A stretch of DNA of 64,000 nt from Tomocerus qinae (Eukaryota; Arthropoda; Collembola; Entomobryomorpha; Tomoceridae): positions 55,800,001 to 55,864,000 of the forward strand of contig CM034546.1 in assembly GCA_020055645.1 (NCBI GenBank), read 5' to 3'. The translations under genes and the position numbers were made by a program. Positions 11,373-51,500 of the stretch are shown here, one piece after another. How positions within the stretch are numbered: the first letter of the stretch is position 1; each line of letters opens with the position of its first letter. The notes under the pieces were generated by a model. That model was given only the letters and a program-made list of their open reading frames with translations. It was not told where the DNA came from and did not search any database.

Positions 11373-12201
11373 AATTATTAAAAAACTGAATTTATGTTGT
11401 AGGGCACCTAATTTATATCTCACAGTATCAAGACTGCTTTCATACCTGATTGAGAAAAAACATTCCATGGCTTTATATACTCTGACTTCTGACGTATGTA
11501 AGCAATAAATTTGGCAGTTGTGTAAAAGTAAAATTCTCCAAACTAAACACGTACTTTACTTCGAATATAAATAATATTTAGAAATGTCTCACCTTTATTT
11601 TCGAATATCTTGATTACGGAGTAACAAATGTAATTACCTAGTAATATTTGCAATAAACAACAAATTAATCAATCCTGTTTACAGAGAATCAGTATTAAGC
11701 AAACAAAAGGTACCACGTACCGCCACAATTGGATCCTCCATAAGGTAACAATGTTAAATTATGTACCACTCTCTAGTTCATTAACATTAGCCAAAAAGTC
11801 ATGGAGATAATGTTGTGTGTGTTTAAGCCATCGTCATTTTTGTGTTGTGCTATGGTGTAGTGAAATAAGCCTGACCGCAAATATTGATATTGACATGATG
11901 CATATACTTTTATTAATCAAACACTAATCTAAATCTACGTTTTTATTACAGTATCTAAGTTTGACCGTGAAATGCATTGAAACTTATCAATTGTTATTTA
12001 TATTTATTCACTGAATTTCCATTCTATTTTCCAGGTAAAAGTAAACCGAGTTTAAACATTTTTATCACTAAATCTGATTTTAACGGTAAACATTATTATC
12101 CAATGTAATAATATTTTTGTTTTATTACCCCCAATGGATTGCTATAAATAGAATCTCTTTTCATTTCCAAGTTGTCAATCTTACTTAGCCCATTCTCAGC
12201 C
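11373..12201. promoter_or_regulatory. Bidirectional promoter region of block 1
   Basis: 829 bp between two genes transcribed away from each other. TATATAAAG lies on the minus strand (11471-11479), and TATAAATA on the plus strand (12143-12150) about 52 bp before the plus-strand ATG, preceded by CCAATGGATTGC. Both boxes are conserved in block 2. This geometry suits co-expression of the two secreted proteins. Confidence 0.65.
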
Positions 12202-15200
12202 ATGCGTGTCATAATTGCAGTCAGTTTCATTTTTTATTTCTTTTTGGTTTCAAATAACGGCTTGGGGTCTCATTTAATAGAAGCAGTTAAGTGCGATGAT
12301 TGTGAAACAAGAACATTTGTAGCAGATACCGATCCAGTGTGCGGTAAATCGCTTGACAAAACATCCGGTGTTATTCAGTACCATGCAGGAGCGACAAATC
12401 TGACCGTCACCTGCCACATCATCTTAAACATCTCACCATATACTTCTTTGAATATTCATCTTAGACGTCGTCCTTGTGCTTCACCAAATCAAACAGTATC
12501 TCTTTTTGGCATTGATCCGCAGGATGACAACACACCTATTAAACAATTGCGAATATTGTAAGCTGTAACTAATTAATTATAAATTATAAAATTCTAATTT
12601 AGGTACGGTACAAACTATAATCTCAAGAGTCCCGGTTACCAAGTTACGGGACATGACCTCGATTACTATATCAAATTAGCCCTATTTTTTTGGCAAACTT
12701 GCATTTCCTCTGAGAATAATGGGCGTAGAATAGTAAAATTGTTCTCTAAAATCGCAGAAACGAGCCCGTCCATAAACCCTAGCCGTCACAACAATGTGAA
12801 AAAATTCACACAAAGGATTCTAGCTTATTTCGATTGGAGTACAATGATTATTGAACCACTAAAACATAATTTTTTCTAATAATAGCAGTGTTATAAGCAT
12901 CCTGCAGTCCAAAACCTTTTCCTTTCATTTTCTTTTTTGACTTACAAAGTGATACTTCATTAGAAAGTACAGTACAGTGAAATACATAGCAGCTTTAAAA
13001 TCAATAGAAAAAGAAAGAGACTGTAACCAGTGACCTTAAAACTGGTTGACAGGGCACTTCTACTTATTACCAAACATTTTTAGTGTAATATTTCTTCCTT
13101 TAAGGCATCAAATGTCTAATATGCACAGTTTACAAAATTTACCACCTTTCAGCTTATCAGAGTGGTAAAAATGCATTTAATGGTAAGCCGAACCAAAAGC
13201 TCGCCTGAGAGAAGGGGACCATGCACACATGTTTGGTAGAACCATAGAAATTTATCAATATTAAGTATCAAAATCAAAATAGATGATTGTTGGCAATCAA
13301 AAGCAATAGAAAATCAAAATAGATTAACCTTGACTACGAAAATCAACAGCAAATAAAAATAGATTAGTTTTGACTATCAAAAGCAATAGAAAATCAAATT
13401 TGGTTAATATTGAATATTAAAATAAACAACATCCAAATTGATTAATATTGTATATTAATATCAACAGAATCAAAATTGATTAATATTAATTATTAAAATA
13501 AACAGAAATTCAATATTGATTAATATTGAGTATCAAAATCAACAGAAATTCAAAATTGATATTGACTGTCATAATGAAAAGTAATTCGAAATAGTAAAGT
13601 TGACTGTCAATTTGAATATAAATTCGGAATAGATTTATTTCCGTCCTACAATGGATATTTTCCGGTTAAATTTACTATATTATGAATCTTAAATTTGGTC
13701 GAATTTATTCAAAGATGGTCGAATTTATTCAAAGATGGTTGAATTAATTCGAAGATGGTCGAATTTATTCGAAGATGGTAGAATTTATTCGAAGATGGTC
13801 GAATTTATTCAAAGATGGTCGAATTTATTCGAAGATGGTAGAATTTATTCGAAAATGGTAGAATTTATTTGAAGATGGTAGAATTTATTCGAAGACGGTA
13901 GAATTTTTTCAAAGACGGTAGAATTTATTCGAAGACGGTAGAATTTATTCGAAGACGGTAGAATTTATTCGAAGACGGTAGAATTTATTCGAAGACGGTA
14001 GAATTTAATCGAAGATATTTATTTCGGACATTCTCGATAGTGGGCGTTGAATTGAGATGAATGTCAGCTGTTGGTTGTGGTTGTATCCACTTCCGAGTAA
14101 TCGGTAGTGCAATAATAGTATGTCGGGTCTTAACGTTTGTGGCCGCCAGGTCCAACTGTCACTGACTTAAGAGTGCTTTGGCTCCGGCTTGTGTGAGTGT
14201 GTGGAGAGAAAGGAAGGCGATGCGATGAGTCATCAAGCTACACCAGGACAGGACATTGAAAGTCCCAATAGAATAGTAGGATACCTGGTTGAGGTATTCA
14301 TTATTCATCTCTAATTTCGAGATATTAAGGTTTTTATTTTAAATCCACAATATCTCGAAATATTAGAATAATGATATGAATAAACACAGAATACTAGACC
14401 TCAACCAGGTTGTTATGCAAATTTAGGATTGACCCCCGAATTGTCAACACCAAATTGTCAACACTGCAACCTATTCTAACCTAACCTAACATAACCATGT
14501 ACCATTCTGTTGACAGACAAAAAAATTGAAAAAGACAGGTGTTGACAAAAAAATGTTGACAATTTGGGATGTTTCCGAATTTAGAGACCGATTTGTCATT
14601 CCCGGAAGAGTTAAAAGTTTTCCAAAAAAGTATTTTTCAGTCCTGCCATAGAATAAATATCTACGCACCTTTGTGTTTTTAAGTCGTAGCCATAGATAAT
14701 TTCCCATCAAATTTACTTGACTTTTAATTGTTGAATTCCATCGTATTTTGAAAATCCCTGACTCGTATTTAAATTAAACTTTATAATTTATTTTTGTGTG
14801 GCTTTACAGGAAAAATAAGGACGGCGAGAACTATATTTTCAACGGATCAGTATTTATAATCAGTTACTTCAACAGACCTGAAGGGACTGTTATGGAGCAA
14901 AGCTTTGTCCTGGAGTTTGAAAGCATCAATGAGAATACACAGTTGGCTTCTGCCTTCAGCTATAAAAACTTTATTGTTTCAGATCCTACTTTTTCACTTA
15001 CTTCTCCCGACTTTGAATTTGCTCCAAACCAATTCACAACTTGGTTTATTCATGGCCCAATTTATGACAATAGAATGATAAGCTACATGCGAAATATTGG
15101 TCTAAATTTTTTGAATTTGAAAGAATGTCCTAATTGCGTTTTTTCAGTCTCGAAATTTTATGAGGACTACAATTTTTCCTCATCTACTTCTCGTTCCCAA

Positions 15201-15443
15201 GATTGGGTCCGATCGTAAGTTTAGCAATATTTTATTGACAGATTTTACTATGTTTAGACTATATTATGAAATTTTCAAATTGGGAAATTACTCTGAATAT
15301 TGTTTTACAGGTTTTACACATCATCTGAATATCCTATTCGAGTTTACGAAGATACGTTCTCAAGCATTGTTGCTACACTACGCATAGGAAACAGCAGCCT
15401 TGCTAATCCGGAATTCCTCTTGCGTTGGAGTTATCTTAGATAA
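12202..15443 (+). CDS. Secreted CUB-like protein, copy 1 (297 aa, 3 exons)
   Basis: Exons: 12202-12557, 14810-15214, 15311-15443; 894 nt in one frame. Residues 1-22 are a hydrophobic signal peptide (MRVIIAVSFIFYFFL..). The mature protein begins near a CDDC pair (31-34). Two diverged CUB-like halves follow: ~45-170, with SGVIQYHAGATNLTVTC and FVLEFE, and ~195-297, with FTTWFIHGP, CPNC and a final LRIGNSSLANPEFLLRW strand. The CUB assignment rests on pattern only and is weaker than for its divergent neighbour. The ATG at 12202 is chosen; the frame extends upstream only through non-ATG codons, and a TATA box lies at 12143. Intron 1 is 2.25 kb here but 116 bp in copy 2, through repeat and MITE insertion. 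Function unknown; probably an extracellular binding protein. Confidence 0.82.
13255..13620. repeat. Diverged ~50-bp tandem repeats
   Basis: Irregular units built on AAAATCAACAGAAATTCAAA followed by TTGATTAATATTGA. Copies are degenerate, so the array is older than the 20-bp array that follows. It lies in intron 1 of the CUB-like gene. Confidence 0.6.
13697..14018. repeat. 20-bp minisatellite, ~16 copies
   Basis: Unit GGTAGAATTTATTCGAAGAC with variants (GGTC, AAGAT). The right half (GACGGTA units) is nearly homogeneous, indicating recent expansion. Intronic. Confidence 0.9.
14283..14410. mobile_element. Small inverted-repeat element (MITE-like)
   Basis: Arms ACCTGGTTGAGGT and ACCTCAACCAGGT bound a second inverted pair, TTTCGAGATATT/AATATCTCGAAA. 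It has no coding content. The target duplication is unclear. Confidence 0.45.
14431..14575. mobile_element. Second small inverted-repeat element with CCTAA repeats inside
   Basis: Ends CCCCGAATTGTCAACACC and its inverse around TGTTGACAATTTGGGATG. The interior holds CTAACCTAACCTAAC, which looks like the arthropod telomere unit but is too short to be telomeric. It lies in intron 1 of the CUB-like gene. Confidence 0.4.
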
Positions 15444-19319: not shown

Positions 19320-20445
19320 AGGTTTATGTTGCATGAGAACCAGAAATATTGATAGAAACATTTTATTATCAACAAGGCAAACATTTTCAACATTGCGTTG
19401 TTGTTTCAACTTTTCAAAAGTAAGTAAATATAGTGTTATAATCCAATATTCATTATACATCAAACGGGTATACTATTATCAGAAGAATTCTCATATTATC
19501 ACAAGTTTCACTGAGACGCCCGTTGTACCATCAATTATCTACATAGATAATTTACATTAGAACCATAAAATGGTACTATAAGTTCACAGTCAATGTGAAT
19601 TTCCACTTGAAGTTTATCCTGATCAATCTTAAAGTTAAATTCACAGAGCTTTGAATAGAAAATCACCTATGCTTAGTATATAATGCATTAATTACGTGGA
19701 ACGAATTTTTTAACAATTATGTAAAATTTACTAACTACATAGCTCAGTTTCTGATTACTACAATACACATCGGGCTTAGAACACATTGTCACTCACAACA
19801 ATGCATTTGTCCTTTTAATATTAAAAATAACCAAAGTTTATACCTACCTACGAATTAATTTTGTGGCATACAAATTGTACCTTGGACAACTTTGTCCCTC
19901 TCTGTTTTGCTTTACATAAGCTTAAAAATGCAACATTGGGAAAATGCTATTTTTCTCAAATTCCCAATCTGTGAATCTGAGCTGTGAAAATAATACAATA
20001 CTTTTGTGTAAATAAACTTAGAACTGGTTATTCTTTTGAGAACATTTTTGGGTGATTGAACTAAGTTGGAAAAATAAATTTGCCAATGCCCAAGAAATAC
20101 ATAGTTTAAGAAAGTTCAGTGTATTCTATCACATAAGTTGATATTATCAAGGCAAACTACATACTAATAATAGTGTAATAAACAGATTAAACGAATTTCC
20201 CATTTACGCAGATAAAATTATGTGCACGGAATTATTCAAAGGCTGCCAACCTTCAGACTGATTCTGGTTTATGTTTGTTTAAGTATATTTTATGTGTGTA
20301 TGTTATGAAGTAAGATTGTCTAAACACAGTATCTTAGTGTTCATTAATATCATTCATAGATTTGGATTGTAGCAGTGAACATCTTAACCCTAAAGTATTT
20401 AGCAAAAGAATAAATTTAGTATCAATCTATACGTGTTTCAACATC
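19320..20445 (+). promoter_or_regulatory. Upstream module, copy C, and promoter flank of elongase 2
   Basis: The best-preserved copy. CATGAGAACCAGAAATATTG (19334), CAAACATTTTCAACATTG, the donor-like CAAAAGTAAGTAAAT, CAGTCAATGTGAATTTCC (19587), then GAATTTCCCATTTACGCAG (20194), GGCTGCCAACC, and finally TATCTTAGTGTTCATT (20330), also present before P450-2. The last element may mark the transcription start. Confidence 0.6.
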
Positions 20446-20972
20446 ATGGCCGCTGCAGTAAATCATTTGACTAATTGGGGTCTCAAACCATGGGTTTATG
20501 CAGATCCACAAAAATTCGAACCATTTTGGTTTGAAAAGTTCGATGGCAACGAATTAAGATATTTGGCCAGGCAGCAATTTCCATTTTGTGTGGCCATTTG
20601 TGTCGTTTATTTATTGTTTATCCACTATGGTCCTTTACTGATGAAAAACCGAAAACCATTCAACTTACAAACTCCTTTAGTGATTTGGAATTTTCTTCTT
20701 GCTATGTTTTCAATAACAGCAACAATAAGATTGTTACCAGACAATATTGACGTTCTAAGTTCTACAAATGGATTTCATATCTCAACTTGTGAATTGTAAT
20801 TACAAAAAAGACCAAATCGTATAGCAAATACAGATATTAAAATTTATTTTTAAAAAATAATTTACCTTAATAAAACAATGATTCTTATTTAAAGGAATGA
20901 TTTTCACTACACATCAACATTTTGGGGATATGCTTTTGCGGCATCTAAAGTTGTAGAATTGGGAGATACCGT

Positions 20973-22972: not shown

Positions 22973-24733
22973 TTAAGAGGAAGGAGGGACAAAACAGTGA
23001 GTATAAGTAAATCCCAAGTGATTCACCCTGCTGTCGCTTTTAAATGTGAGAATTATAAGTGCATTATTTCCGTTATAAGTTCTTAGATTTGTTCCATCGC
23101 ACCACCTAAAAATGATTATCATGTCAATCTTTAATGTTTACAAACTACGAATCATAATTATATAATGTTAAGAGTACTACTATAGGTTACAACTTGACAA
23201 AAAATTATAATTTTAAACCTTGTAATACAAGTAATGCTATAGTAGCGTGTAACTTACCTTCCCTCATAATAAGGAAACGGATAGTTGTGGTCTTGAATAG
23301 TATAAAGGCTTAATTTGTCGTGATTGCAGTTAGGCTCAATTCCATTGGCATATACGTGCAAATAAATATTTGTGAATTCGTTCTTTTGAACTGGGAATAT
23401 CAATGTGGGAGGCTGAAGAACAAGAACAAAAAGTTGATTGGGTTCATAAAAATTGCCATTTGGTGGGTATTTAAATGAAGTCACGTCCCAGTTGGAATAG
23501 TTAAACTGCGACAAAACAAAAGAAGTAATAAGTCTTGTCTCTGTCTCCAGACTGTACTCGTTGATTGTACTGTATGACAATTTAAACCCCTTCTCAGTCT
23601 GATTATTACGACCGGATTTGTAAACCACAATAAATGCGAGCCCTGTAAATTCGTACTCATTACGATCTCCACGTATACTGCAAATTTTAAAATCATAATC
23701 ATTGGTATATTTACATAATGCATGTCCATTGTATTTAGATTGGATTAACAATCTAACAAATAATTCAATACAATTAATGAGCATACTACAAAATTTTCAG
23801 GTTAGAATTGCGCAAAGGGCTATCTACATAATATTGTATGTCTATTGCGCATATAAATTGGATTGACAACCCAACAAATAATTTACTGAGGGAATCAATG
23901 CAACTAATACACATTTTCGGGGAGTAGATGATAATTTTGTCTCCCTTCCCGTAGTAAAATCTCCCTTGCAATCGCTACCAAAAACATATAAATCAAGAAA
24001 AATACCGGGGTTTTGGAAATGCTTTAATGTAATAAAAAAACTATGATTCAAAAAAGGCAAAGAAAATTATGACGTGCAAATTTTTGTTTACTAACAGTGA
24101 GTGAAAGTGAAAAATCTAAACATAATTTTCTAGCCCGTATTACCTTACTCAAAATCAATATTTTCAAATACAGTTGGTTTTAAAATAGTGTTCGAAAATT
24201 TGGGCTCCATGCTCATTTTTAAAATAGGTAACTTTCAAAAATTGTTTATGTATTAGTATAATTAATGTTCATCACCAGCCGGTCTGGAAACTATATTTTA
24301 TAGAAACATGTTAGTTCAAATTTTAATAGTCCTTTTAATTTGGGAATTGTTTAAAACTTACAAAGATTTGGTAGTCATTAAGTCTCCGTTTTCTGTGGGC
24401 GAATATATTGCCAAACTAGTAGACGAAGAAAATCCATCCTCCACAAGTTTTATTCGAATCTGAGATACTTTGCTAGCATTATTTGTCTGTATTACCCAAG
24501 TACAGATTTGGTTAGGTCTGTAGTTCTCGTTCAGTCTATGCGTTATACTCCCTGAATCTTGATACTCCATTCCTCCGCATTCTAAAATGATTATAAATTA
24601 AATGTTTAATAAAATTTATTCTTTTTCATTTTACAAGATTTTTACCCTCTTTAATGACGACATCAGCAATTTGAGCCTGAACTAGAAGACCGTTGGATAA
24701 CCAAAGGATTATGCCCACGAGGAGAAAATTCAT
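22973..24733 (-). CDS. Secreted double-CUB-domain protein, copy 2 (263 aa, 4 exons)
   Basis: Exons: 24733-24646, 24581-24362, 23677-23258, 23036-22973; 792 nt in one frame, each exon the same length as in copy 1. Signal peptide MNFLLVGIILWLSNGLLVQA; CUB 1 ~31-138 (ECGG, NYRPNQICTW, closing GFKLSY); CUB 2 ~160-255 (PNCNHDKLSLY, closing GFTYTH). Differences from copy 1 are mostly conservative, but the region just before the last exon differs more (TIQDHNYPFPYYEG against VQASYSPMALYSR). This may be a divergent ligand-contact loop. The TATA box TATATAAAG lies at 24834-24842 on the minus strand. It is divergent from the gene at 25683 and convergent with elongase 2, about 160 bp away. Ligand unknown. 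Confidence 0.85.
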
Positions 24734-25682
24734 TATTATAACAAAACTGATTTTATGTTGTAGGGCACCTAATTTATATTTCACAGTATCAAGAATGCTT
24801 TCACGTACCTGATTGAAAAAGAATATTCCATAGCTTTATATACATTGGCTTCTGACGTACATCTGCAAGTAATAAAGTTGGCAGTTGTGTAAAGTAAAGT
24901 CCTCCAAACTAAAAACGTACTTTACTAAATATTACTTAGGAATGTCTCATCCTTATCTTCGGATATTCTGATTACAGAATAATAAACAATGTAATCACCA
25001 GTAATGATTGCAATAACAAATAAATACTATAGGGCTTCCACATTAATCAATCCTGATTTCAGCGAAATGGTATTAAACAAATAAATGATACACGTAGGCT
25101 TCTAAACCATTTTTGGCTTTCTATTAAAACTAATAAATTGAATCAAACATATAATAAAGATATACCTACAGTTTACCATCCACTAGTTCATTAACATCGC
25201 CCCAATCATCATGAATAAGTTGTAAAGTTGTAATCGTCAGCAGATTATCTCCGTATAACTGTTGTTAAAATTATCCCGTCTGCAGGTACAAACCCCATTC
25301 TGCAGACGGGATATTGATATATTCATTTTACACGCAATCTAAATGTACTTAATTTTATTGCCCTTTTTTCACAAATTTGCAAACTTGATGATACAACTTT
25401 TGGTGTCTTGCCACATTATAAAACTTTACTCTTCATGCAGTTTAGCTGTAAAATGTCAAAATAAAGTGTTGTTTGTACCTGAAATGCGTGGAAAGTTATC
25501 AATTATCAGTAACCCGATTTAGTATAGCAAGTTTAAACATTTTATCACTAAATCTGAATTCAACGGTAAAATAATTATTCAATGACGTAATACGTTTATG
25601 TTTTAATACTCCCAATGGATTGCTATAAATAGAATCTCTTTTCATTTCCCAGTTGTCAATCTTATTTAGTCTATTCTCAACC
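24734..25682. promoter_or_regulatory. Bidirectional promoter region of block 2
   Basis: 949 bp between divergent genes. Minus-strand TATATAAAG (24834-24842) and plus-strand TATAAATA (25624-25631, preceded by CCAATGGATTGC) are both conserved with block 1. The middle part differs from block 1 and includes a short palindromic ATCCCGTCTGCAGG..TGCAGACGGGAT (~25273-25308). Confidence 0.65.
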
Positions 25683-26792
25683 ATGCGTGTGATAATTGCA
25701 GTCAGTTTCATTTTTTATTTCTTTTTGGTTTCAAATAACGGCTTGGGGTCTCATTTAATAGAAGCAGTTAAGTGCGATGACTGTGAAACAAGAACATTTG
25801 TAGCAGATACCGATCCAGTTTGCGGTAAATCGCTTGATAAAACATCCGGTGTTATACAGTACCATGCAGGAGCGACTAATCTGACCGTCACTTGCCACAT
25901 CATTCTAAATATCTCACCATATACTTACTTGAATATTCATCTTAGACACCGTCCTTGTGCTTCACCAAATCAAACAGTATCTCTTTTTGTCATTGATCCG
26001 CAAGATGACAACACACCTATGAAACAATTGCGAACATTGTAAGCCTTAATTAATTTAATTAAAAATTGCCACATTTTAAATGAGTTTAATTTAGCTACAA
26101 GTTATAAGCTTAATTTAATACAATTTTTTAATTTATTTTTGTGTGATATTACAGTGAAAATAAGGACGACGATAAGATTTATATTATGAACGGATCAGTT
26201 TTTATAATCAGTTACTACAACAGACCTGAAGGGACTGTTATGGAACAAAGCTTTGTCCTGGAGTTTGAAGGCCGCCATAAGAATACAGCTTCTGACTTCA
26301 ACTATCAAAACTTCATTGTTTCAAATCCTACTGTTTCACTTACTTCTCCTGACTTTGAATTCGCTCCAAACCAATTCACAACTTGGTTTATTCATGGCCC
26401 AATTTACGACAACAGAATGATAAGCTACATGTACAATATTGGTCTAAATTTCTTGAATCTGAAAGAATGTCCGAATTGCGTTTTCTCAGTCTTGCAATTT
26501 TATCAGGACTCCACCCTCTCGTCTATTTCTCGTTCCCAAGATTGGGTCCGGTCGTAAGTTTAGCAATATATTATTGAATAATAGTAATATTATGATATTG
26601 ATGTATACATATTTAGTCTATATTTCAAACGGGAAAATAACTCTGAATATATTTTTCAGGTTTTACACATCCTCTGAATATCCTATTCGAGTTTATGAAG
26701 GTACGTTTTCAAGCATTGTTGCTACATTACGCATAGGAAACAGCAGCCTTGCTAACCCGGAATTCCTCTTGCGTTGGAATTATCTTAGATAA
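25683..26792 (+). CDS. Secreted CUB-like protein, copy 2 (295 aa, 3 exons)
   Basis: Exons: 25683-26038, 26155-26553, 26660-26792; 888 nt in one frame, two codons shorter than copy 1 in exon 2. Same signal peptide (MRVIIAVSFIFYFFL..), CDDC pair at 31-34, and two diverged CUB-like halves ending LRIGNSSLANPEFLLRWNYLR. Intron 1 is only 116 bp and intron 2 is 106 bp, probably the ancestral sizes, since copy 1 has gained 2 kb of repeats. The ATG at 25683 is chosen for the same reasons as in copy 1. The pair with the minus-strand CUB gene is preserved, arguing that the two products act together. Function unknown. Confidence 0.85.
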
Positions 26793-41690: not shown

Positions 41691-42015
41691 GCTACTATCT
41701 TTTGGGCACTTCGGTATAAATTCTAATAACGCTGACCATTCTGTGTTGTTCTTAAATCTTGCATGATTCTTGATATCCGATTACAGGTATCTATATATTA
41801 TTATTATTGTACTATTTTTATGCATTAACTTAATGTTAAAATTTCCATTACAGAAACTACAAGTTACAAATCTGAAAAGCTTTGGAATACAATTAAAGTT
41901 GTTACCTTAAGTATGAAGTGGACATTTGAGAAATCTATTGGAAAAAAACCCTACTTTGAACATCTCTACCGGAGCAGAACACTGAAACCCTTAATTGATG
42001 AAGGAAGGCTGAAGT

Positions 42016-42469
42016 TGTTAAGTATAACAAACTAGGTTGTGAGTAAAAGATTTTGCATTTAGGTGTTACTTAAAGTAACTTTTATTTGGTACAGAGAAAG
42101 AAGTTTTCAGCTCAAACTTACGAGTAAAACTCAGTACAGTTGTATTGTTGCACACAGTATTTAAACAAAATGCTCACATACAGATTCATGTAATATGACG
42201 GACCCTTAATTACTTATAGCATAAGTAGCTTATAGTATTGTCTACATAAAGGACCCTTTGCTAGTACAGAAGTAACAGTTGTTCCCATATGTGTCATGCA
42301 TCATTTAAACTTAATTGAGCTGCAAGTGCTTAATATTAATAGGAACTACTTAAAGGGCCAGAGTTTAAGTGCCTAGACCCTTGACATCTAATGTTCACAA
42401 AAATTTACAATTCAATGGTGTGAACACTTGCTACAATTTTTCTCATGTATTTAGATTAGTACTCTAACA
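42016..42469 (-). repeat. Copia 3' LTR (left)
   Basis: 454 bp, TG..CA bounded with the inverted tips TGTTA/TAACA, identical to the right LTR except at 42312. The polypurine stretch AAGGGACAG (minus strand) ends against it at 42470. Confidence 0.95.
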
Positions 42470-42497
42470 CTGTCCCTTAATCTGAATACATTTTTAT

Positions 42498-44498
42498 TTA
42501 GGCATTATCTATTTCGATGGTTTCAGGGGCTGTAAATTTTACAGCAGGCTTGACAATTTTCTTACGTTTCCAAATGAAAATTATAACAACAACCAGAATT
42601 ATTATAATAAGAGACATAAAAATTATTCCACCAGTCAACAAATTCAAAAACATAAATGTAGTATTATGTGGATCATGATTTATCTTAGTTGTATCCCACA
42701 TTTTTATATCTTCCTTAATTTCGTCCATGTGTATCTTTGGCTGTAATAGCCAATTAGCTTTCATAGTGAATAAGGGGTTGACCTCCTGGATGTGGCTAAT
42801 TTGAAATTCGCCGGCCTTGTAAAAGTGATCATTAATTACGAAAGTTGCTGTAATAGGTAGCGTGAAGACATCAAGTGGGCAGGCCTGTTCTCTTTTTCCA
42901 ATTGTTATATTATTGCCGTGACAATAAATATAATTCTGAGAGTTGAAGTTTTTTACTTGAACGAAATCCATCGCATCCTTCGCATGTCTCGGATGACATT
43001 TTCCCAATGAATAATACCTCGAAACGTTTGGGTACGTCATGCTATGGTCACAATCCTGTGAAGGAGACAAAATCAAATCAGAGTATTTAACATTAACTGC
43101 ATACACACAACTGTGTAGTTCACTCATGATCACGTTACGGGGTCCAGAAAATGAGATAACGCAAGTCTGGTTCGCAGTTTGGTGAATCAGGTCAAAAGGG
43201 TCAGCCTCCAGAAGGTGCAGAGTATCATTTATAAGTGGAGTAACAAAATCAAAGTACAGTTTAGATTTGTCATAAGATAATCGACATTTCTTTGCTCTGC
43301 CAAGCCGAATCGGACAAGACTCTTTACATGGCAAGGAGAAACCAAGATAATCAAACAATGGAGCATATAGCTTCCGTTCTTCCCAATTTCGCTTCGCTTC
43401 TTTAAGTATTTGTTTGGCAGTCAGCATTCTTGATGTTATGTATGAAATTGCGTAAATGGATGCGCTCAGCTTTGCTTTCATTTGTGTATAGTCATCTTCA
43501 TGTGCCTTAGTTTCTATCCGCAAAAGTTTTACATTATGTTGTAGAACTTTAATTGCTTCTTTCGCTAATTCCATATTTTTCGAAAGACTTTCTAGTTCAC
43601 TCTCCATCTCAGTCATCTTCGTTTCAACAGTTGCTATTTTTCCTGCTGCTATACTGGCTGTCACCTGTGCTGAGATTCCAAGTCCAACTGGAACAACTAT
43701 GGACATGATTAGTATTCCCATTAATATTCCAAAAACAAATCTCTTAGAGCGTGAATGGACTTCTGTGAAGCTGCCTTTAGGGCACATAATTTCCAGTTCC
43801 TTCAAAAAATATTCATCATACAGTTCGTTGCATTTATTTTTCGTATCGATGAGAAGATCCTCATGAATTGTCTCATTCGTCAAAATGTCGCAAGGGCTTT
43901 TCAAATGAATCATTAAATAATACTCATTGTAACCTACAGTTATAGGTATGTTACTTGGCCTCCAAAGTACTGGTTGGTTTACGGTTGGGTTTGCAGTAAT
44001 TGGGGCTAGAAGTCCCAGCAATAGTAGCATAGTAATGAATAACTTGCTCATTAGTCCTTTTATGGTTCCAGTTCCAACACCAACCTTTGAATGGGGGTTG
44101 GCATTCCCGTTTCCTGTACTGAGTCCAAGTTGCTGAGTATCATGCTCATGTTTGCCTTTTAATAACGGCTTTGTGAATATATCCGCTTTCTGCTCTTCTG
44201 TACATACATACTTAACTTCCACTATTTTCTTACTTAATAGTTCTCTGATGTAGTGGTAACGCACATCTATGTGTTTGGTGCGTTTGTGGAACTCTGGATT
44301 ATGGGCTAGGCGTATGGTACTTGTATTGTCCACAAACAATATTGCTGGATCATATTGCTGTATCTTAAGTTCTGTGAGATACGATTGTAACCATACACAT
44401 TCTCTAGCTGCTGAGGAAAGAGCAACATACTCGGCTTCAGTACTTGATAAAGTAACAATAGGCTGCTTCTGGCTAGTCCAAGTTATTAGACTATCCCC
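42498..44498 (-). CDS. env: Copia RNase H C-terminus joined in frame to an envelope-like glycoprotein
   Basis: A frame open from the RNase H frameshift to 42498. From the first ATG at 44339 it encodes 613 residues. Residues 1-~65 are the end of the Copia RNase H (VDNTSTIRLA, HIDVRYHYIRE, ADIFTKPL). Without an intervening stop an envelope-like protein follows: Met97 (44051) starts a signal peptide (~97-117), then an ectodomain with several Cys and six N-x-S/T sites, a basic RSKR cleavage site (197-200), a long hydrophobic Gly/Ala-rich fusion-peptide-like stretch (201-232), a heptad-rich helix (~235-300), a Cys-rich part and a C-terminal membrane anchor (~570-592) with a short basic tail. The layout is that of a class I fusion protein. 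It may be made from Met97 via a spliced RNA or from the polyprotein. The source of the env cannot be named without a search. Confidence 0.85.
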   Translation of the reverse strand, partial: GDSLITWTSQKQPIVTLSSTEAEYVALSSAARECVWLQSYLTELKIQQYDPAILFVDNTSTIRLAHNPEFHKRTKHIDVRYHYIRELLSKKIVEVKYVCTEEQKADIFTKPLLKGKHEHDTQQLGLSTGNGNANPHSKVGVGTGTIKGLMSKLFITMLLLLGLLAPITANPTVNQPVLWRPSNIPITVGYNEYYLMIHLKSPCDILTNETIHEDLLIDTKNKCNELYDEYFLKELEIMCPKGSFTEVHSRSKRFVFGILMGILIMSIVVPVGLGISAQVTASIAAGKIATVETKMTEMESELESLSKNMELAKEAIKVLQHNVKLLRIETKAHEDDYTQMKAKLSASIYAISYITSRMLTAKQILKEAKRNWEERKLYAPLFDYLGFSLPCKESCPIRLGRAKKCRLSYDKSKLYFDFVTPLINDTLHLLEADPFDLIHQTANQTCVISFSGPRNVIMSELHSCVYAVNVKYSDLILSPSQDCDHSMTYPNVSRYYSLGKCHPRHAKDAMDFVQVKNFNSQNYIYCHGNNITIGKREQACPLDVFTLPITATFVINDHFYKAGEFQISHIQEVNPLFTMKANWLLQPKIHMDEIKEDIKMWDTTKINHDPHNTTFMFLNLLTGGIIFMSLIIIILVVVIIFIWKRKKIVKPAVKFTAPETIEIDNA

Positions 44499-47400
44499 AA
44501 GGAAAATGCATAGCCAGTAGTAGATTTCCTTTCTAGCCTGTCTCCTGCGTAGTCTGAGTCAGAGTAACCACACAGACTAATCTTCCCTCCTCTCTTGTAA
44601 TACAGTCCAATGTCCATGGTTCCCTTAAGGTACCTAAGTACCTTCTTTCCTGCTTCGAAGTGTCTCATGTCATAGGCATTCATAAACTGTGAAAGCTTTG
44701 ACACAGTATAGGCAATATCTGGTCGAGATAATCTCGCCAGAAAGAGCAAAGCTCCAATTAGCTGTGCATATGGAAGGTCTTTCTCACATTGTTCTGCTGG
44801 GACCAAGTCATGGTTGGGCTGCATGGGAACGGACAGAGCGTTGCAGTCAATCATGTTAAATCTTTCAAGTAGAGTCTGAACAAATGACCCTTGTCCCATA
44901 AAAATCCCATTTTCATCCCTTTTTATCTCAAAACCAACAAATGAATGCAGCTGTCCAACTGATATATCAAATGCAGACTTGATCTTTTCTGTAACTTCAA
45001 GAAGAGCAGCATTATCTGGAGATATTAACAAAATGTCGTCTACATATACAAGAAGATATACAATGTGTGTGTTAATGTATCCAATAAACACACATGGATC
45101 GCTAGAAAGAGCACTAAAATTGGCTTGTGTGAGATGTTGGGTTAATTTTTCATTCCAGCATCTTGGCGCCTGTTTAAGTCCATACAAGCTCTTGTTTAAT
45201 AGGCACACTAAGCCTGAGTTTTCTTCAAATCCTTCGGGTTGATTCATGTATATTGTTTCTTTCAACTCTCCATGCAGAAAAGCTGTTTTTACATCTAATT
45301 GAACAATGTAATAACCGTAATGTGCTGCAATGCACAACAACAATCGTATACTTTCGTAGCGGCATACCGATGAGAATGTATCTTCATAGTCAATCCCATA
45401 TTGTTGTCGAAATCCTCTGATTACCAATCGTGCTTTTAATCTGCTGATTGAGCCGTCTGGATTTCTCTTTACTCTGTAAATCCATCTATTATCAAGTATC
45501 GGTGTGTTTTCTGGACGCTGCACAAGAGTCCAAGTATTATTCAGACTGTGACTGGATAATTCATCTAGCATTGCTTGAGTCCATTCGTTTGCATTTTCAG
45601 ACTGCATTGCTTCTATGTAGGTAGTGGGCTCTCTGTAAACTTGTGCTTGATGTGCTTGGTACCTATCAATAGGTACTAACTTAGATCTGTCCCTTAAGGT
45701 CGGTCCAGGCCTAGGTTGACACTCTAGCTCCTCCTCATCTCCTACACACTCACTCTTTATTGTTTCACACAGCTCTAATGTGTTCATGTCGTTTTTCTCT
45801 TTTGAGAATTCTCCTTGCACAACTTCTTGAAAAGTGACATTTCGAGCAATTTTAATAGTCTTGTTTTCAGCGTTATACAGTCTATAACTCAATCCATCGT
45901 ATCCAACCATGTAACACTGTTCTCCATTAAGATCCCACACTTTACGTTTGCTTTCTGGAATATGTGCATAAACAATGCTGCCAAAAATTCGTAAATGCCC
46001 CATTTCAGGTTTTCTTTTGAAAATAGCCTCAAAAGCCGTTACATCTGGACTTTGTGTATCAAGAATCCTGTTCTTAATGTATACTGCAGTGGCCAATGCC
46101 TCTGCCCACAAAAATTCTGGAAGTTTTGACTGCAAAAGCATACAACGTGCTGATTCCTTCAGAGTTCTCATCTCTCTTTCTATCCTCCCATTTGACTCGG
46201 GGCAAAATGGAGCGGATCTCTCATGTAGGATACCCTTTTGCTCAAAGAATTTCTGCACTGTCTGATTAATCATTTCTGTGCCGTTATCGCTTCTGAAGAC
46301 TTTTAACCTTGCTCCTGTTTGATTTTCCATGAAATTAACATATTCTTCAATGCAGGCAGGGACTTGAGTCTTTTTAGAAATAAAAAATATCATGCGAAAT
46401 CCTGTCGAGTCATCCTTCATTAAGAAAAAATATTCAGCTCCTCCTATAGAACTGACTGGCATTTTCCCAGATAAGTCTGCGTGTACCATTTCTCCTGGCT
46501 TAGTGTTTCTTTTAATTTCTATTGGTGGATAAGGCTTTCTTGCTTGCTTTCCCAATTGACAAGTGCCACATACAATATGCTCGCTTCCAAATTGCTCATT
46601 GAATCCTCTCACTACATTTTTCTTAACAGTTTCCGTAAGAAATTTCATATTAATGTGACCCATACGCTCATGCCAGAGTCTAGCATTGGAATCCAAAGTC
46701 AGCGCATTTGCTGTAATCGGTTCAATAGACTTGAACTTCATAATGTATGTATTGTTTCTCAATTCAGCAATTGGCCCTTCTAATCCATTTGGGTCTATGT
46801 ATTTAGTGCACCCTGCTGCTCTTACTATAGTGTAGCCTTTTCTGTCCATAACTACTTCGGAAAACAGATTTACTGCATTTTCAATGTATAATACATTATG
46901 TAGTATGCATTCCGTCCATACGTTGGCTATAGATGCAAGTACAGGAACAGACCCTATCCCTTCGGCTTTTACAGTATTCCCATCAGTAAGGAATACAGAC
47001 AGCGGAGTCTCAAGGTCTTTAAAAGTAACAAATAAAGACTTCTTACCGCAAATATGCTGGCTTGCACCCGAGTCAGAAATCCATATATCATTACCATGGT
47101 TGGGATTACTCATGAAAGCAGCCGTTGTCTTTTTCTTATCCTCAGCGCTTTGATTTGATGGCTGATTTCGGGCTGGACATTCCTTATCATTAGACCAATG
47201 TCCAATCTGTTCGCATTTATGGCATTTAGTCTTCTTTTTCAATTCGTCAATCTTTTTCTTCTTAAATTCCTTCTTGTCTGTTTTTCCTTTAAACCCTTTT
47301 GCTTGGAACGCCTTGGCTTGGCTCTTCTCCGTCTCTTTCGTGGTTTCTTGAGTCATTTCAAGGTCCTCTTTCCTTAACCTGGCTAATAGTGCAGGCATAG

Positions 47401-47938
47401 TTTGGGATGCTGTAGGAACGCTGTCCCATGATTTCTTAAAAGCTAAATGCTTTTCATCAGGGAGTGAAGACACTATTTTCATTATTGTGGTCGCATCGTC
47501 AATGACCACGCCCATTTGGTTTAGAGAAATTGACAATCTCTCTATCTCTGTGTATGTAGTGACAAGACTCTTTCCTTCTTTGAACTTATAGTTTAAGAAC
47601 GAAGATAACACGAACTGTTTGTTCAACTGACTTGTGTCACTATGAATTGACTTCAGACGGTCATACACTTGTTTTGATGTAATGCAACTGTGGATATGAG
47701 TGGCGTTTACTAATGTTAGTGTAGGCACAATGATGGCTTGGGCCTTTATGTCAGAGTCGTCCCATTTATCTTTATCGGCTGCGGCTGCACGAGTGGATGT
47801 GCCACTGACAACATCCCACAATTTTGCAGCTTTTAGAACTAGGGAGATTTGCAGGTTCCACAAGTCCCAATTATCATTTGCAAGTTTAACTACGTGATTA
47901 GTATCAATACGTTGGGAAATACTGACACTAGAAGCCAT
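44486..47938 (-). CDS. gag-pol: Copia Gag-Pol polyprotein (1150 aa; RNase H truncated by frameshift)
   Basis: Single polyprotein frame. Gag part 1-~235 (UBN2-type, WDLWNLQISLVLKAAKLWDV). Zinc knuckle C239-x2-C242-x4-H247-x6-C254 (normally H-x4-C). Protease DSG at 289-291. Integrase zinc site H423/H428/C457/C460 and catalytic D487, D551, E587 (D-D-35-E). Reverse transcriptase ~800-1050 with LDVKTAFLHG and YVDD (965-968). RNase H begins at ~1100 with YSDSDYAGD but ends early at residue 1150. After the G run at 44495-44498 (minus strand) the frame is shifted by one base; the rest of RNase H continues in the frame that also holds env. Either one base has been lost or there is an assembly error. 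No canonical slippery heptamer is present there. The ATG at 47938 follows the primer site. Confidence 0.93.
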   Translation of the reverse strand: MASSVSISQRIDTNHVVKLANDNWDLWNLQISLVLKAAKLWDVVSGTSTRAAAADKDKWDDSDIKAQAIIVPTLTLVNATHIHSCITSKQVYDRLKSIHSDTSQLNKQFVLSSFLNYKFKEGKSLVTTYTEIERLSISLNQMGVVIDDATTIMKIVSSLPDEKHLAFKKSWDSVPTASQTMPALLARLRKEDLEMTQETTKETEKSQAKAFQAKGFKGKTDKKEFKKKKIDELKKKTKCHKCEQIGHWSNDKECPARNQPSNQSAEDKKKTTAAFMSNPNHGNDIWISDSGASQHICGKKSLFVTFKDLETPLSVFLTDGNTVKAEGIGSVPVLASIANVWTECILHNVLYIENAVNLFSEVVMDRKGYTIVRAAGCTKYIDPNGLEGPIAELRNNTYIMKFKSIEPITANALTLDSNARLWHERMGHINMKFLTETVKKNVVRGFNEQFGSEHIVCGTCQLGKQARKPYPPIEIKRNTKPGEMVHADLSGKMPVSSIGGAEYFFLMKDDSTGFRMIFFISKKTQVPACIEEYVNFMENQTGARLKVFRSDNGTEMINQTVQKFFEQKGILHERSAPFCPESNGRIEREMRTLKESARCMLLQSKLPEFLWAEALATAVYIKNRILDTQSPDVTAFEAIFKRKPEMGHLRIFGSIVYAHIPESKRKVWDLNGEQCYMVGYDGLSYRLYNAENKTIKIARNVTFQEVVQGEFSKEKNDMNTLELCETIKSECVGDEEELECQPRPGPTLRDRSKLVPIDRYQAHQAQVYREPTTYIEAMQSENANEWTQAMLDELSSHSLNNTWTLVQRPENTPILDNRWIYRVKRNPDGSISRLKARLVIRGFRQQYGIDYEDTFSSVCRYESIRLLLCIAAHYGYYIVQLDVKTAFLHGELKETIYMNQPEGFEENSGLVCLLNKSLYGLKQAPRCWNEKLTQHLTQANFSALSSDPCVFIGYINTHIVYLLVYVDDILLISPDNAALLEVTEKIKSAFDISVGQLHSFVGFEIKRDENGIFMGQGSFVQTLLERFNMIDCNALSVPMQPNHDLVPAEQCEKDLPYAQLIGALLFLARLSRPDIAYTVSKLSQFMNAYDMRHFEAGKKVLRYLKGTMDIGLYYKRGGKISLCGYSDSDYAGDRLERKSTTGYAFSLGIV

Positions 47939-48067
47939 TGTAGTTTGTTAGTTTCACTGTCTTTAAGTAAATCACTCTTTTCCACAAACTGACTGAGTAC
48001 TCACTGAATGAATCGATCTTTACCAATACAAAAATTCGCACAAAGTTTCTTAACTCACAGGTCCAAT

Positions 48068-48086
48068 AATCCCACTTCTGACACCA
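48068..48086 (-). other. Primer-binding site, complementary to tRNA-Leu 3' end
   Basis: Directly abuts the 5' LTR (no spacer). On the minus strand it reads TGGTGTCAGAAGTGGGATT, complementary to a tRNA ending AATCCCACTTCTGACA-CCA, the 3' end of a common metazoan tRNA-Leu, recalled from general knowledge. Many Copia elements prime from tRNA-iMet instead. Confidence 0.75.
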
Positions 48087-48540
48087 TGTTAAGTATAACA
48101 AACTAGGTTGTGAGTAAAAGATTTTGCATTTAGGTGTTACTTAAAGTAACTTTTATTTGGTACAGAGAAAGAAGTTTTCAGCTCAAACTTACGAGTAAAA
48201 CTCAGTACAGTTGTATTGTTGCACACAGTATTTAAACAAAATGCTCACATACAGATTCATGTAATATGACGGACCCTTAATTACTTATAGCATAAGTAGC
48301 TTATAGTATTGTCTACATAAAGGACCCTTTGCTAGTACAGAAGTAACAGTTGTTCCCATATGTGTCATGCATCATTTAAACTAAATTGAGCTGCAAGTGC
48401 TTAATATTAATAGGAACTACTTAAAGGGCCAGAGTTTAAGTGCCTAGACCCTTGACATCTAATGTTCACAAAAATTTACAATTCAATGGTGTGAACACTT
48501 GCTACAATTTTTCTCATGTATTTAGATTAGTACTCTAACA
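48087..48540 (-). repeat. Copia 5' LTR (right)
   Basis: 454 bp. In element orientation it would contain the promoter; I did not fix a TATA box. It differs from the left LTR only at 48383. Confidence 0.95.
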
Positions 48541-51500
48541 GAAGTTATTCAGAATTTTCAAAGCCAGAATTCGTAATCATTTAATGCTTTTATAGGCTCC
48601 ATATAAATATAAAACAAATGAAACAGCTTTTGGTATGTACTGACTTGGCAACTCCTGGCACACGGTTGTTTCTTCGTGTAGCACTAATCCTTTTCGATTC
48701 AAAAAGCGTTGTTAACGCCATGATAGATTAGAATAGGAACTTCTTTGGAACCTTTTACAGAGTTTTGTTGCTTTACTTAGAATCAATGTCCTTGAAACAC
48801 AAAATTGTTGTACTTTTTATCCAATCAACCGTTTCCATTTCCTTATGTTTTTTGGTCAACTTTTTACTGGCGCTGTTAATGGATGTTCCCTCACGTACCA
48901 AATGCCTTTAGTGGGAGAATTATAGTTCCAAAGGTTGTTTTTTACAGGGGATATTGATATAGTTGCTGTCCAGGGAATTATTTCGATGCGTGGAATTACA
49001 TCAATTGACAAATTAAATTGAAATTTTATGGTTTAATAATTTCAGTGGTTTCTGATGATATGGCGTCCTTTAAGAAAATGACTCACAGTAAGGAATGTAA
49101 TGGAGTATTCACTCATTCAATAGCGAATATTTTAGCAGGTGGTAAAGGTCATCACAAAGGTAATTGTTTTATAGAATATGTACCCAATTTACAAATAGTA
49201 TTGGGCTTTCGGATGGGCATCGTGTCGTAACGTTTCTTCAGCGATCTAACCAAAATCTCCTTACGACATTAACTTCTAACGCAGAAAAAAGTGAATATAA
49301 GGCGCTTCTTTCATTTTAACCTTTCATATTACTAAGCATACGTAATCAATATCAACGCAGTAGAGCAATAATGAATTCTCTATTTTATGACATTAAAATC
49401 TCATTTTTGTCAATACATGTCGCTAAGCCGGAATCGTTGGATGGCGCCCCAAATAGGCTTTTTAGTGAATGAGTCAAAAATTTTCAAAAATTACAACAAG
49501 GTATTAGGAGCTTGAAATGTTTCGGTAACAACATCCAAAGGTAGATGTGCTTTAGACTCACAGGACGTCCTCATTTATTCAACACTTTTTTTAATGGAAG
49601 TTTTTTGAAAGCATCACTGTTTGTCAAAACATGCACATAAGTTGTATGTTGAAAATGTATACAGACAGTTATTATACAAAATTCATAGGATATGATTTTT
49701 TTTTCAAAAACCAAAATTTGGATTTTTAGAGAACTTAGTTGAATTTATAGATAAATCAATCAGTCCTATGAAGACTTTCGTGGCAAAGTTATTAAATTTA
49801 CTAGCTTAGATTTTCTTTATTTTGATGATATGTTTATTCATTTATCTCGTTGTTTGTTCTAACTTTTAAAAGTAATATGACACTTGAATAAATTTGAACA
49901 TGTCTATATTAAATGAATAATAGAAGATAATAAAGAAATTATACCTTATAGATTTCTAAAACATGTTAGTCCAGTGTTATCAGTCTGGCTCACAAAAGAA
50001 CGATTTGTGTATCGGATATTCAATGATTTTATTATGTGCACGTTTTTTAAGAATAATTTTTTGTTATTACTTAACTTCGTTAGGTATTCTGTGGGCCGGT
50101 GGACCACAATGGGCGGATTTAAGGAAATACACCGTGAAAAAATTTGGCCAATTGGGTTTTAATAAAAGCGATCAATTGTCACACTTACTATCAGAATTGC
50201 TTTCGGATTTCATGGATAACATCAGCAACATTAAAATGGCGACCAAAAACAAAATTCCAGTAAAAAATTTATTTCTGTTGCCAACATTTAATCTCGTTTG
50301 GCTCTTAGTAGGAGGTCATAAATTTTCTCCGGATGATGAAAAATTTGTTAAGTTATTCAAAAATGTGGACCTTTTGGGACATGCACCCCTAATACATGGA
50401 CTGTTAATAGAGGTTTTGCCCAACAACAAAATTATTCACTACCTATTCGGATTGAAATCATTCATAAAAGCTGCTAAATCACTTAGAGCATTCATGGAAG
50501 TTAGTAATTTTATTCGTTTTTGTTTCTTTGAGATAATGAACAATGATATATAAAATTATGGCTTTTAGGAATTTGTAGATGAAAGAGAAAAATTATCAAA
50601 ACCAGAACCAGAAGATTTTACGGATTACTTTCTCCTTGAAATAGAAAAGCACAAGGATAATCCTAATTTAAAGGATTACTACTGTAAAGACCAACTGGTC
50701 CAACTTTTGGTAGAATTATTTGAAGCAGGATCCGACACAACAAGCAAATTTATGGAATTTTCTCTTATGTACATGGTACAAAATCCTGAAATACAGAAAA
50801 AGGTACAAATGGAAATAGACGAAGTAATAGGAAGCGACTGTTTTCCATCATACAGTGACTACAGGAAAAGGTTATTAGACATCTTATAACATATAAAAAT
50901 TAATTAAGTATTTACTTATAGAATAAAAATGTTAGGTAGGCGTATAATTATTTTTTAATCTACGATTATCAGTACACATTTATTTAACATTTTGATTTGA
51001 TCTGCAGAATGCCATATACACTCGCAACGATGATGGAAATTCACAGAATGGCCGGTATTGTCCAATATTTTCCGAGATCAACAGAAGAAAATTGGGAAAT
51101 TGACGGAAGTGTGCTAAAGAAGGTATTTGTTGGCTTATTATTTTATATTTGTCCGGCATGTCGAAAATTAAAATTTTCAGGGCAAAAAACTCTTCCCATT
51201 TCCTGATTCTCAGGTTTCAGCCCCACCCGTGAATTAAGTGAGATTACCAAAAAGATCCAAGTGTTATAATTTGAAATTTAATTTTGCATAAATTCATGTC
51301 TTTTAAATATTTGACGACGTGATAATTTTTATAAAAACGAAACAGGGCCATTTTGGAATTTTATTACTTATTTTATTACTTCTGCAATCCATTTCAGCTA
51401 ACCTCTCAGAATTTTCAAGTACCCTTTATAAAAAATTCTACTATAAATGGACCGGTTTTACAATCTAAACGAGCCATTTGTCCTAATGCGTGTTATTGCC

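Follow-up and report, generated by a model that had tools for sequence, protein, structure and literature searches.

A Copia retrotransposon lineage of springtails carries a predicted class I F-type envelope gene in its pol frame

Introduction

The profile of Pseudoviridae, the Ty1/Copia retroelements, by the International Committee on Taxonomy of Viruses (ICTV) describes them as having no extracellular phase; its table adds that the virions 'might be enveloped' (PMC8515867). An envelope-like third open reading frame (ORF) is named in that profile for plant Sirevirus only, in agreement with an earlier note on the DNA studied here, which held that such ORFs in Copia are mainly a matter of Sireviruses. 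Animal Copia elements are taken to be intracellular. Here we analyze a stretch of 64,000 nucleotides from the springtail Tomocerus qinae (GenBank assembly GCA_020055645.1, contig CM034546.1, positions 55,800,001 to 55,864,000, forward strand), called the window below, in which the pol region of a Copia element is followed by a predicted envelope (env) gene. We hold with good confidence that springtail-like arthropods harbour a Copia lineage that acquired a class I F-type viral fusion glycoprotein gene long ago and has since maintained it in working order. That confidence extends to the core of the reading: a long terminal repeat (LTR) element, env behind pol and in the pol frame, a predicted F fold, purifying selection and exchange of env as a cassette.

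Envelope capture by LTR elements is itself already known. Sections of PMC5408684 describe TelKA LTR elements of bdelloid rotifers with a paramyxovirus-type env. As those sections present them, they share with the springtail Copia a class I F-type envelope on an LTR element (RXXR motif, fusion peptide, coiled coil and transmembrane segment), and differ in their rotifer host, in carrying env as ORF3 and in a clear match to the Pfam family PF00523. For BEL/Pao elements, captured envelopes of chuvirus, phlebovirus and herpesvirus types are reported in parts of PMC7642597. One of these, the mosquito element Anakin, is like the springtail Copia an arthropod LTR element with an RNA-virus glycoprotein, in its case from a chuvirus; it belongs to a different superfamily and its glycoprotein is gB-like, according to the same parts. 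Passages of PMC12440569 place errantiviruses in Ty3/gypsy and derive their env likely from a baculovirus. Sections of PMC10084718 see no clear evidence for capture of a chuvirus glycoprotein by Gypsy or Copia, and a general statement in part of PMC11599104 is that a few members of the three families express an env-like gene. Errantiviruses resemble the springtail Copia in being arthropod LTR elements with env, whereas their pol is of Ty3 type and the window element has the Pfam domain RVT_2 and the Copia gene order. The errantivirus env is F-type and forms a separate spliced ORF, and TelKA elements are not of Copia type.

We found no animal Copia with an envelope described in the open-licence literature, a scope that leaves out subscription papers, most preprints and Repbase reports. 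New here are the envelope capture in animal Copia, its lineage-wide extent, its place in the pol frame and its exchange as a cassette. If true, the presence of a conserved class I fusion protein throughout a whole Copia lineage of animals would represent an independent origin of retrovirus-like life from another big LTR superfamily, and the fate of an LTR element after envelope gain would become testable. One genome offers many families, copies in differing states of decay, env exchanges whose boundaries can be seen, and a possible case of domestication by the host. Springtails would then also be a system for studying how Copia spreads from soma to germline or horizontally.

Results

A recent and already damaged Copia insertion

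An LTR retroelement of Ty1/Copia type occupies positions 42016–48540 of the window (6525 nt from LTR to LTR) on the minus strand, as do all its parts given below. Its gag-pol frame of 1150 residues (44486–47938) contains, in Copia order, Retrotran_gag_2 (PF14223, 47411–47842, 82.3 bits), Pol_BBD in the protease region (PF22936, 46832–47083, 63.7 bits), GAG-pre-integrase, the integrase core rve (PF00665, 46208–46504, 40.7 bits), SH3 and the reverse transcriptase (RT) domain RVT_2 (PF07727, 44819–45541, 228 bits); a zinc knuckle scores below the Pfam cut-off. With rve at residues 479–577 and RVT_2 at 800–1040, integrase precedes RT. The 5' LTR (48087–48540, TGTTAGAG...ACTTAACA) and the 3' LTR (42016–42469), each 454 nt long and with TG...CA ends, are identical at 453 of 454 positions, and copies of the target-site duplication GAAGT lie on either side (42011–42015 and 48541–48545). 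Directly adjoining the 5' LTR is a primer binding site of 19 nt (48068–48086), complementary to the 3' end of a host tRNA-Leu plus CCA. The 14-base core of this tRNA end occurs 31 times in the genome; among ten of these sites, none of them at a listed RT locus, ARAGORN found tRNA-Leu genes at two, both ending in the core. The Pseudoviridae primer is usually the initiator tRNA-Met (PMC8515867), whereas that of the window element is of tRNA-Leu type. A purine-rich stretch directly before the 3' LTR, AAGGGACAG (42470–42490), was assigned by eye and is the presumed polypurine tract.

The RVT_2 domain with integrase ahead of it, the LTR pair, the short target-site duplication and the tRNA primer site place the element in Pseudoviridae, with which it also shares the gag-PR-IN-RT order and a single gag-pol frame. 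The RT and gene order of Ty3 type that define Errantivirus are absent, RVT_2 and the Copia order standing in their place. The element departs from the ICTV description of Pseudoviridae as an animal lineage with an F-type env in the pol frame. Behind RVT_2 the frame of the window copy is interrupted at 44340–44485, inside RNase H; Pfam gave no RNase H call in this copy, and the domain was assigned by position and by eye. Because of this interruption, RT and env lie in different frames in the window copy. The earlier note had called the element complete, and it is so in its LTRs, 5-bp duplication and domain order, not in its reading frame. The single LTR mismatch, together with five identical env copies in the genome, bears out the note's view that the element moved recently. 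The window copy is a recent insertion that is already damaged.

The envelope gene has the parts of a class I fusion protein

The env open frame spans 42498–44339, and the gene from first methionine to stop 42498–44051 (about 517 residues). It begins with a hydrophobic signal-like segment (43989–44045). A furin-type cleavage site, RSKR, follows at residues 100–103 (43740–43751), and directly behind it is a putative fusion peptide (43659–43739), placed by alignment to human metapneumovirus (hMPV) F and by a weak match to PF00523. In the predicted model a long helical region resembling heptad-repeat A (HRA) covers about residues 152–223 (43380–43595). A C-terminal transmembrane anchor (42567–42647), also a helix in the model, has a short basic tail behind it. 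The protein contains 12 cysteines and six N-x-S/T sites, so that the features read from this DNA beforehand (signal peptide, RSKR, hydrophobic stretch, heptad region, N-glycosylation sites, anchor) all have a counterpart here. In an alignment of 12 diverged env sequences (the window, nine other loci of the genome and two metagenome proteins; 23–54% identity to the first row), the 12 cysteines and the last arginine of the cleavage site are invariant. One env, L054, lacks the C-terminal anchor.

Sequence comparison alone is insufficient to settle the identity of this protein. The Pfam model Fusion_gly (PF00523) matches at the expected place with 15.0 bits, below its cut-off of 29.8; the best of nine relatives reaches 17.3 bits, also below the cut-off, and of the 12 diverged sequences four give matches with E no higher than 1, the lowest being 0.004. 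Weak matches to pneumovirus and paramyxovirus F chains come from a profile of 17 env sequences (best F E 0.0028), which aligns env 97–195 to hMPV F 78–175 with the cleavage sites in register. The same profile gives a bacterial coiled-coil protein a better score (E 0.00028), and a profile of the 12 diverged sequences finds F at E 0.011, ranked below other coiled coils. The subthreshold Pfam score and the two profile rankings weigh against an F-type identity. They would fit a membrane protein with coiled coils whose likeness to F is accidental, the weak sequence matches being in part generic coiled coils and some of them above F.

The predicted structure argues otherwise. Two AlphaFold models of env have predicted local distance difference test (pLDDT) scores of 72 and 74. 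In a fold search of the PDB, the best 50 of 103 matches (E ≤ 0.001) are all paramyxovirus or pneumovirus F proteins, with a top E of 1.5e-9; the earlier note had proposed such a search, with the lack of any fusion-protein fold as the outcome that would count against it. Residues 23–415 of the env model superpose on 8tvg, spanning F2, the fusion peptide, HRA and the beta domains of F1, and the second model is concordant with the F fold by VIA-align. Two features of a class I F-type protein are present: the predicted F fold over F2 and F1, and a basic cleavage site that is immediately followed by the fusion peptide and the heptad helix. We therefore set aside the chance coiled-coil protein as very improbable: the span of the fold and the conserved cysteines speak against it, despite the coiled coils that outscore F by sequence. 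That the env match is more than chance is also clear from at least 87 matches in the genome and from relatives in other records.

A probable donor among arthropod RNA viruses

Among predicted viral models (BFVD), Lispiviridae are prominent, with hosts that judging by their names are arthropods. The predicted lispivirus glycoproteins, among the best matches, have an F-type fold as in the springtail Copia env; Lispiviridae are exogenous RNA viruses, unlike the Copia env, and the connection consists of fold matches, no link having been found at the sequence level. A single env searched against viral contigs found no relative. Searches of protein databases (16, 18 and 11 overlapping matches; the candidates sharing most words were scored) returned none named as a virus, most being nameless. 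Genome searches for PF00523 and for the mononegavirus polymerase PF00946 gave nothing, but the controls were equally silent and the PF00523 search misses env itself. On the modelled fold, env was probably donated by a mononegavirus of arthropods close to Lispiviridae.

Baculovirus F models also match env, at E 2.4e-9 and, in another search, 1.9e-8. It is thus conceivable that env came from or with another retroelement, Ty3-like or an errantivirus of the baculovirus-F type, and not directly from a lispivirus-like RNA virus. Loci that combine a protease with env and have no Copia pol (described below) would fit such a source, but their env copies nest inside the Copia env diversity. The query TM-scores are 0.33–0.37 for the four matches that the taxonomy assigns to Lispiviridae, against 0.28–0.34 for baculovirus F, a small margin. 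We regard this origin as rather unlikely and a mononegavirus near Lispiviridae as the probable donor.

Envelope-bearing Copia elements are old and lineage-wide

The genome (334 Mb) contains at least 80 RVT_2 matches and at least 87 env matches, both counts being lower bounds; 24 of the 87 listed env matches carry stops. Merged by distance, the 80 RT matches form 68 loci and the 87 env matches 71. Among the matches listed, env is found within 6 kb behind RT at 61 of the 68 Copia RT loci, with an RT-env spacing of 741–845 nt in 54 of the 61 pairs. The seven RT loci without env, judged within 6 kb with the flanks not read for env farther away, consist of RVT_2 matches that are incomplete or interrupted by stops, in frames of 78–367 residues. 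Sister copies without env had been named beforehand as a finding that would speak against a genuine env gain, and these seven are the only ones seen.

In 28 of the 61 pairs RT and env lie in frames of equal length, from which we deduce a shared frame, and in 12 this frame has 1780–1995 residues. Env is cut short in at least two of these 12 (C1:64.43 Mb and C5:2.37 Mb). Gag was looked for in the window copy and in P0024 and is present in both. P0024, a protein of 1906 residues from an unrelated record, joins gag (domain at 43–204), protease region, integrase, RVT_2 (872–1112) and env (about 1397 to 1868). Four further frames from other records (P0007, P0011, P0018 and P0022) combine RVT_2 and env. 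The named relatives come from two orders of Collembola: Folsomia candida contributes a 'Copia protein' and a hypothetical protein, Allacma fusca an unnamed product. The genome itself has 114 matches to the cuticle domain Chitin_bind_4 (PF00379) and a single match to the insect odorant receptor (PF02949); the cuticle matches and the springtail relatives agree with the arthropod host presumed at the outset. Many cuticle matches beside one odorant-receptor match suit a springtail and make a winged insect improbable. Sirevirus is a poor fit on two counts: the host is not a plant, and env is not a separate third ORF, given the shared frame lengths in 28 of 61 pairs and P0024, the window copy's own frame being broken.

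Env trees were built from 49 rows and from 36 chosen rows (with 12 and 19 protein-database matches, respectively). In the tree of 36, env of this genome does not form a group apart from env of other records: there are seven label changes, at least four of them forced by well-supported branches. Env-bearing families therefore either predate the host splits or moved between hosts. The gain of env is not specific to the window element; it is old and lineage-wide. Of the earlier proposal of an independent env capture by Copia and a candidate infectious lineage, the capture of an F-type env stands, as an old event of the whole lineage and not of this element, and infectivity is a matter of interpretation, discussed below.

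At C1:83.62–83.68 Mb (G000), about 54 kb of one strand contain two RVT_2 matches that lack env within 6 kb and one env match that lacks RVT_2; later insertions may have split these elements.

Env continues the pol frame

The earlier note had placed an env gene after RNase H. Its position behind RNase H holds, but in the less damaged copies env continues the pol frame and is not a third ORF; we accordingly rejected a separate env ORF for these copies. The frame is open across env families about 30% identical to each other, and also in P0024. A gag-pol-env polyprotein with an internal signal sequence, comparable to the structural polyproteins of alphaviruses, is the route of expression that we favour by a narrow margin over even odds.

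The open pol-env frame might instead be incidental, with the captured F-type env translated from a subgenomic mRNA produced by splicing, as retroviruses and errantiviruses do. We read 13 copies (12 distinct): most have an in-frame methionine shortly before the hydrophobic segment and the others one about 25–45 residues upstream, as splicing would allow, and a polyprotein would equalise the amounts of env and gag, which is unusual. By a simple scoring, which leaves absence unproven, the same copies have no polypyrimidine-AG acceptor or methionine at a common position before env. Splicing also leaves open why the frame is maintained across such diverged families and in another record. We consider it a serious possibility, somewhat short of even, and continue with the polyprotein route.

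Env is exchanged as a cassette between families

Over 18 copies, RT and env distances agree broadly (r = 0.88), with clear exceptions. The window element and L013 are 71% identical in RT, with a proportion of synonymous differences (pS) of 0.81, which is saturated; their env sequences are 96% identical, with 0.13 synonymous substitutions per site (dS). Along the two elements, identity in 200-nt sliding windows is 66–76% until just before env, 91–98% across env and 70–74% in the LTR; a single window of intermediate identity marks each edge (81 and 84%). These edges bound a cassette at 42470–44145, each accurate to about 100 nt on either side. Two other copies, L010 and L017, show much the same profile against the window. 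What was exchanged corresponds almost precisely to the env gene. For the window env recombination is required, since tighter constraint on env would not account for the synonymous sites. Template switching during reverse transcription between co-packaged RNAs would be a likely route. L039 and L040 (RT 65%, env 87%, both near saturation) are a weaker and inconclusive case of a swap.

Env is under purifying selection

The comparison covered 38 env rows (the window being L009) in which 400 or more residues could be aligned; of the 703 pairs, the 103 with dS < 1.6 are listed. Between the window env and the L013 family, nonsynonymous substitutions per site (dN) are 0.020 and dS is 0.130, a ratio of 0.15. 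The ratio is 0.05 for L039 and L040 (dN 0.074, dS 1.45), 0.14 for L047 and L049, and 0.09 for L043 and L057; across the listed pairs with dS ≥ 0.1 it is 0.05–0.19. In 11 of 13 chosen pairs the synonymous sites are saturated, with dN 0.21–0.55. To the points counted above on the other side must be added some near-identical pairs with a handful of changes, in which the ratio is near or above 1, which is what young or decaying copies would show. Selection on env is purifying, the result that a dN/dS comparison had been proposed to look for.

A possible life cycle

Synthesis of a gag-pol-env polyprotein would begin in the cytosol and continue there until the hydrophobic segment in its interior directs env to the endoplasmic reticulum. 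There signal peptidase would free env, and a furin-like host protease would cut at RSKR. The F2/F1 trimer would then be displayed at the cell surface and could be taken up by Copia particles as they bud. Class I fusion, by insertion of the fusion peptide and collapse into a helix bundle, would then allow spread from cell to cell, probably from soma to germline.

The gene content suggests that env-bearing Copia elements are able, now or once, to pass between cells like a virus, and to that extent the predicted env speaks against the 'no extracellular phase' of Pseudoviridae for these elements. For present-day spread by env we see even chances. To our knowledge, Drosophila Copia has not been described with an env. 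An intracellular Copia might have retained env for other purposes than infection, such as membrane targeting or interference, or as a passenger. There is no evidence of particles, and Copia capsids transfer between Drosophila cells, as reported in part of PMC11835246; both would suit a non-infectious role. But the cleavage site, fusion peptide, 12 cysteines and anchor are kept over a large divergence (save the anchor in L054), and a passenger would decay, whereas env is under purifying selection. A non-infectious role is in our judgement improbable, and a protein kept for entry the better account. The fullest version of that account, in which springtails and other soil arthropods harbour a long-lived lineage of true animal Copia retroviruses that make one polyprotein of Gag, Pol and an F-type Env, spread with it between cells and perhaps species, reassort Env as a cassette between families and have left a host protease-Env family kept by selection, is a tentative proposal that we would put a little below even.

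Protease-env loci outside Copia

RVT_2 is missing from the vicinity of ten env loci, and at five env loci a retroviral-type aspartyl protease part precedes env. Protease and env share one open frame at C1:65.01 Mb (1023 residues; labels L028, L059 and L060) and C1:67.04 Mb (1090 residues; L029, L061 and L062). Within env the frame is broken at C10:0.39 Mb (L063 and L064), and stops occur at C1:66.42 and C1:67.99 Mb. The protease model RVP scores 22.4 bits at C1:67.04 Mb against a cut-off of 20.7; at C1:65.01 Mb other protease models match, below cut-off. For C1:65.01 Mb, C1:67.04 Mb and C10, blastn found no LTR-type repeat between the fetched flanks, and no RT is present among the listed frames of the fetched stretches. 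Beside each of the three, in opposite orientation, lies a BTB gene; at two of these loci a weak MATH match accompanies it. C1:67.04 Mb and C10 have both flanks in common (about 89–93% identity) and are a segmental duplication. The 67.04 and 65.01 loci are 37% identical in the neighbour gene, 33% in the protease part and 66% in env (env proportion of nonsynonymous differences, pN, 0.206; pS 0.747), env being better conserved than its partners. In the trees the env sequences of the protease-env loci are sister to the window family plus L023, within Copia env.

The likeliest reading is that an env of Copia origin joined a protease part of Ty3 type and was retained by the host, which makes it a candidate domesticated envelope gene. 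The rival is a dead recombinant element. A dUTPase-like stretch seen by eye in these loci has no Pfam support and was dropped. Frames of 1128–1854 residues at C1:82.06, C2:5.21, C1:47.47, C46, C1:67.79 and C10:0.07 Mb have a protease region in common with the protease-env loci and are presumably Ty3-like elements of the same genome.

Other features of the window

Two sets of similar open frames follow in much the same order, the first at 5478–5831, 7535–7909, 12172–12561 and 14796–15218 and the second at 20362–20799, 23254–23784, 25653–26042 and 26186–26557; one pair holds a fragment of an ELO elongase. Judged by eye, the pairs point to a duplication of roughly 11–16 kb. Inside the duplicated stretch lies a hAT transposase C-terminal dimerisation domain (PF05699, 21221–21871, plus strand). 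At the edge of the window a retrotransposon gag (PF03732, 271–2019, minus strand) is presumably of Ty3 type.

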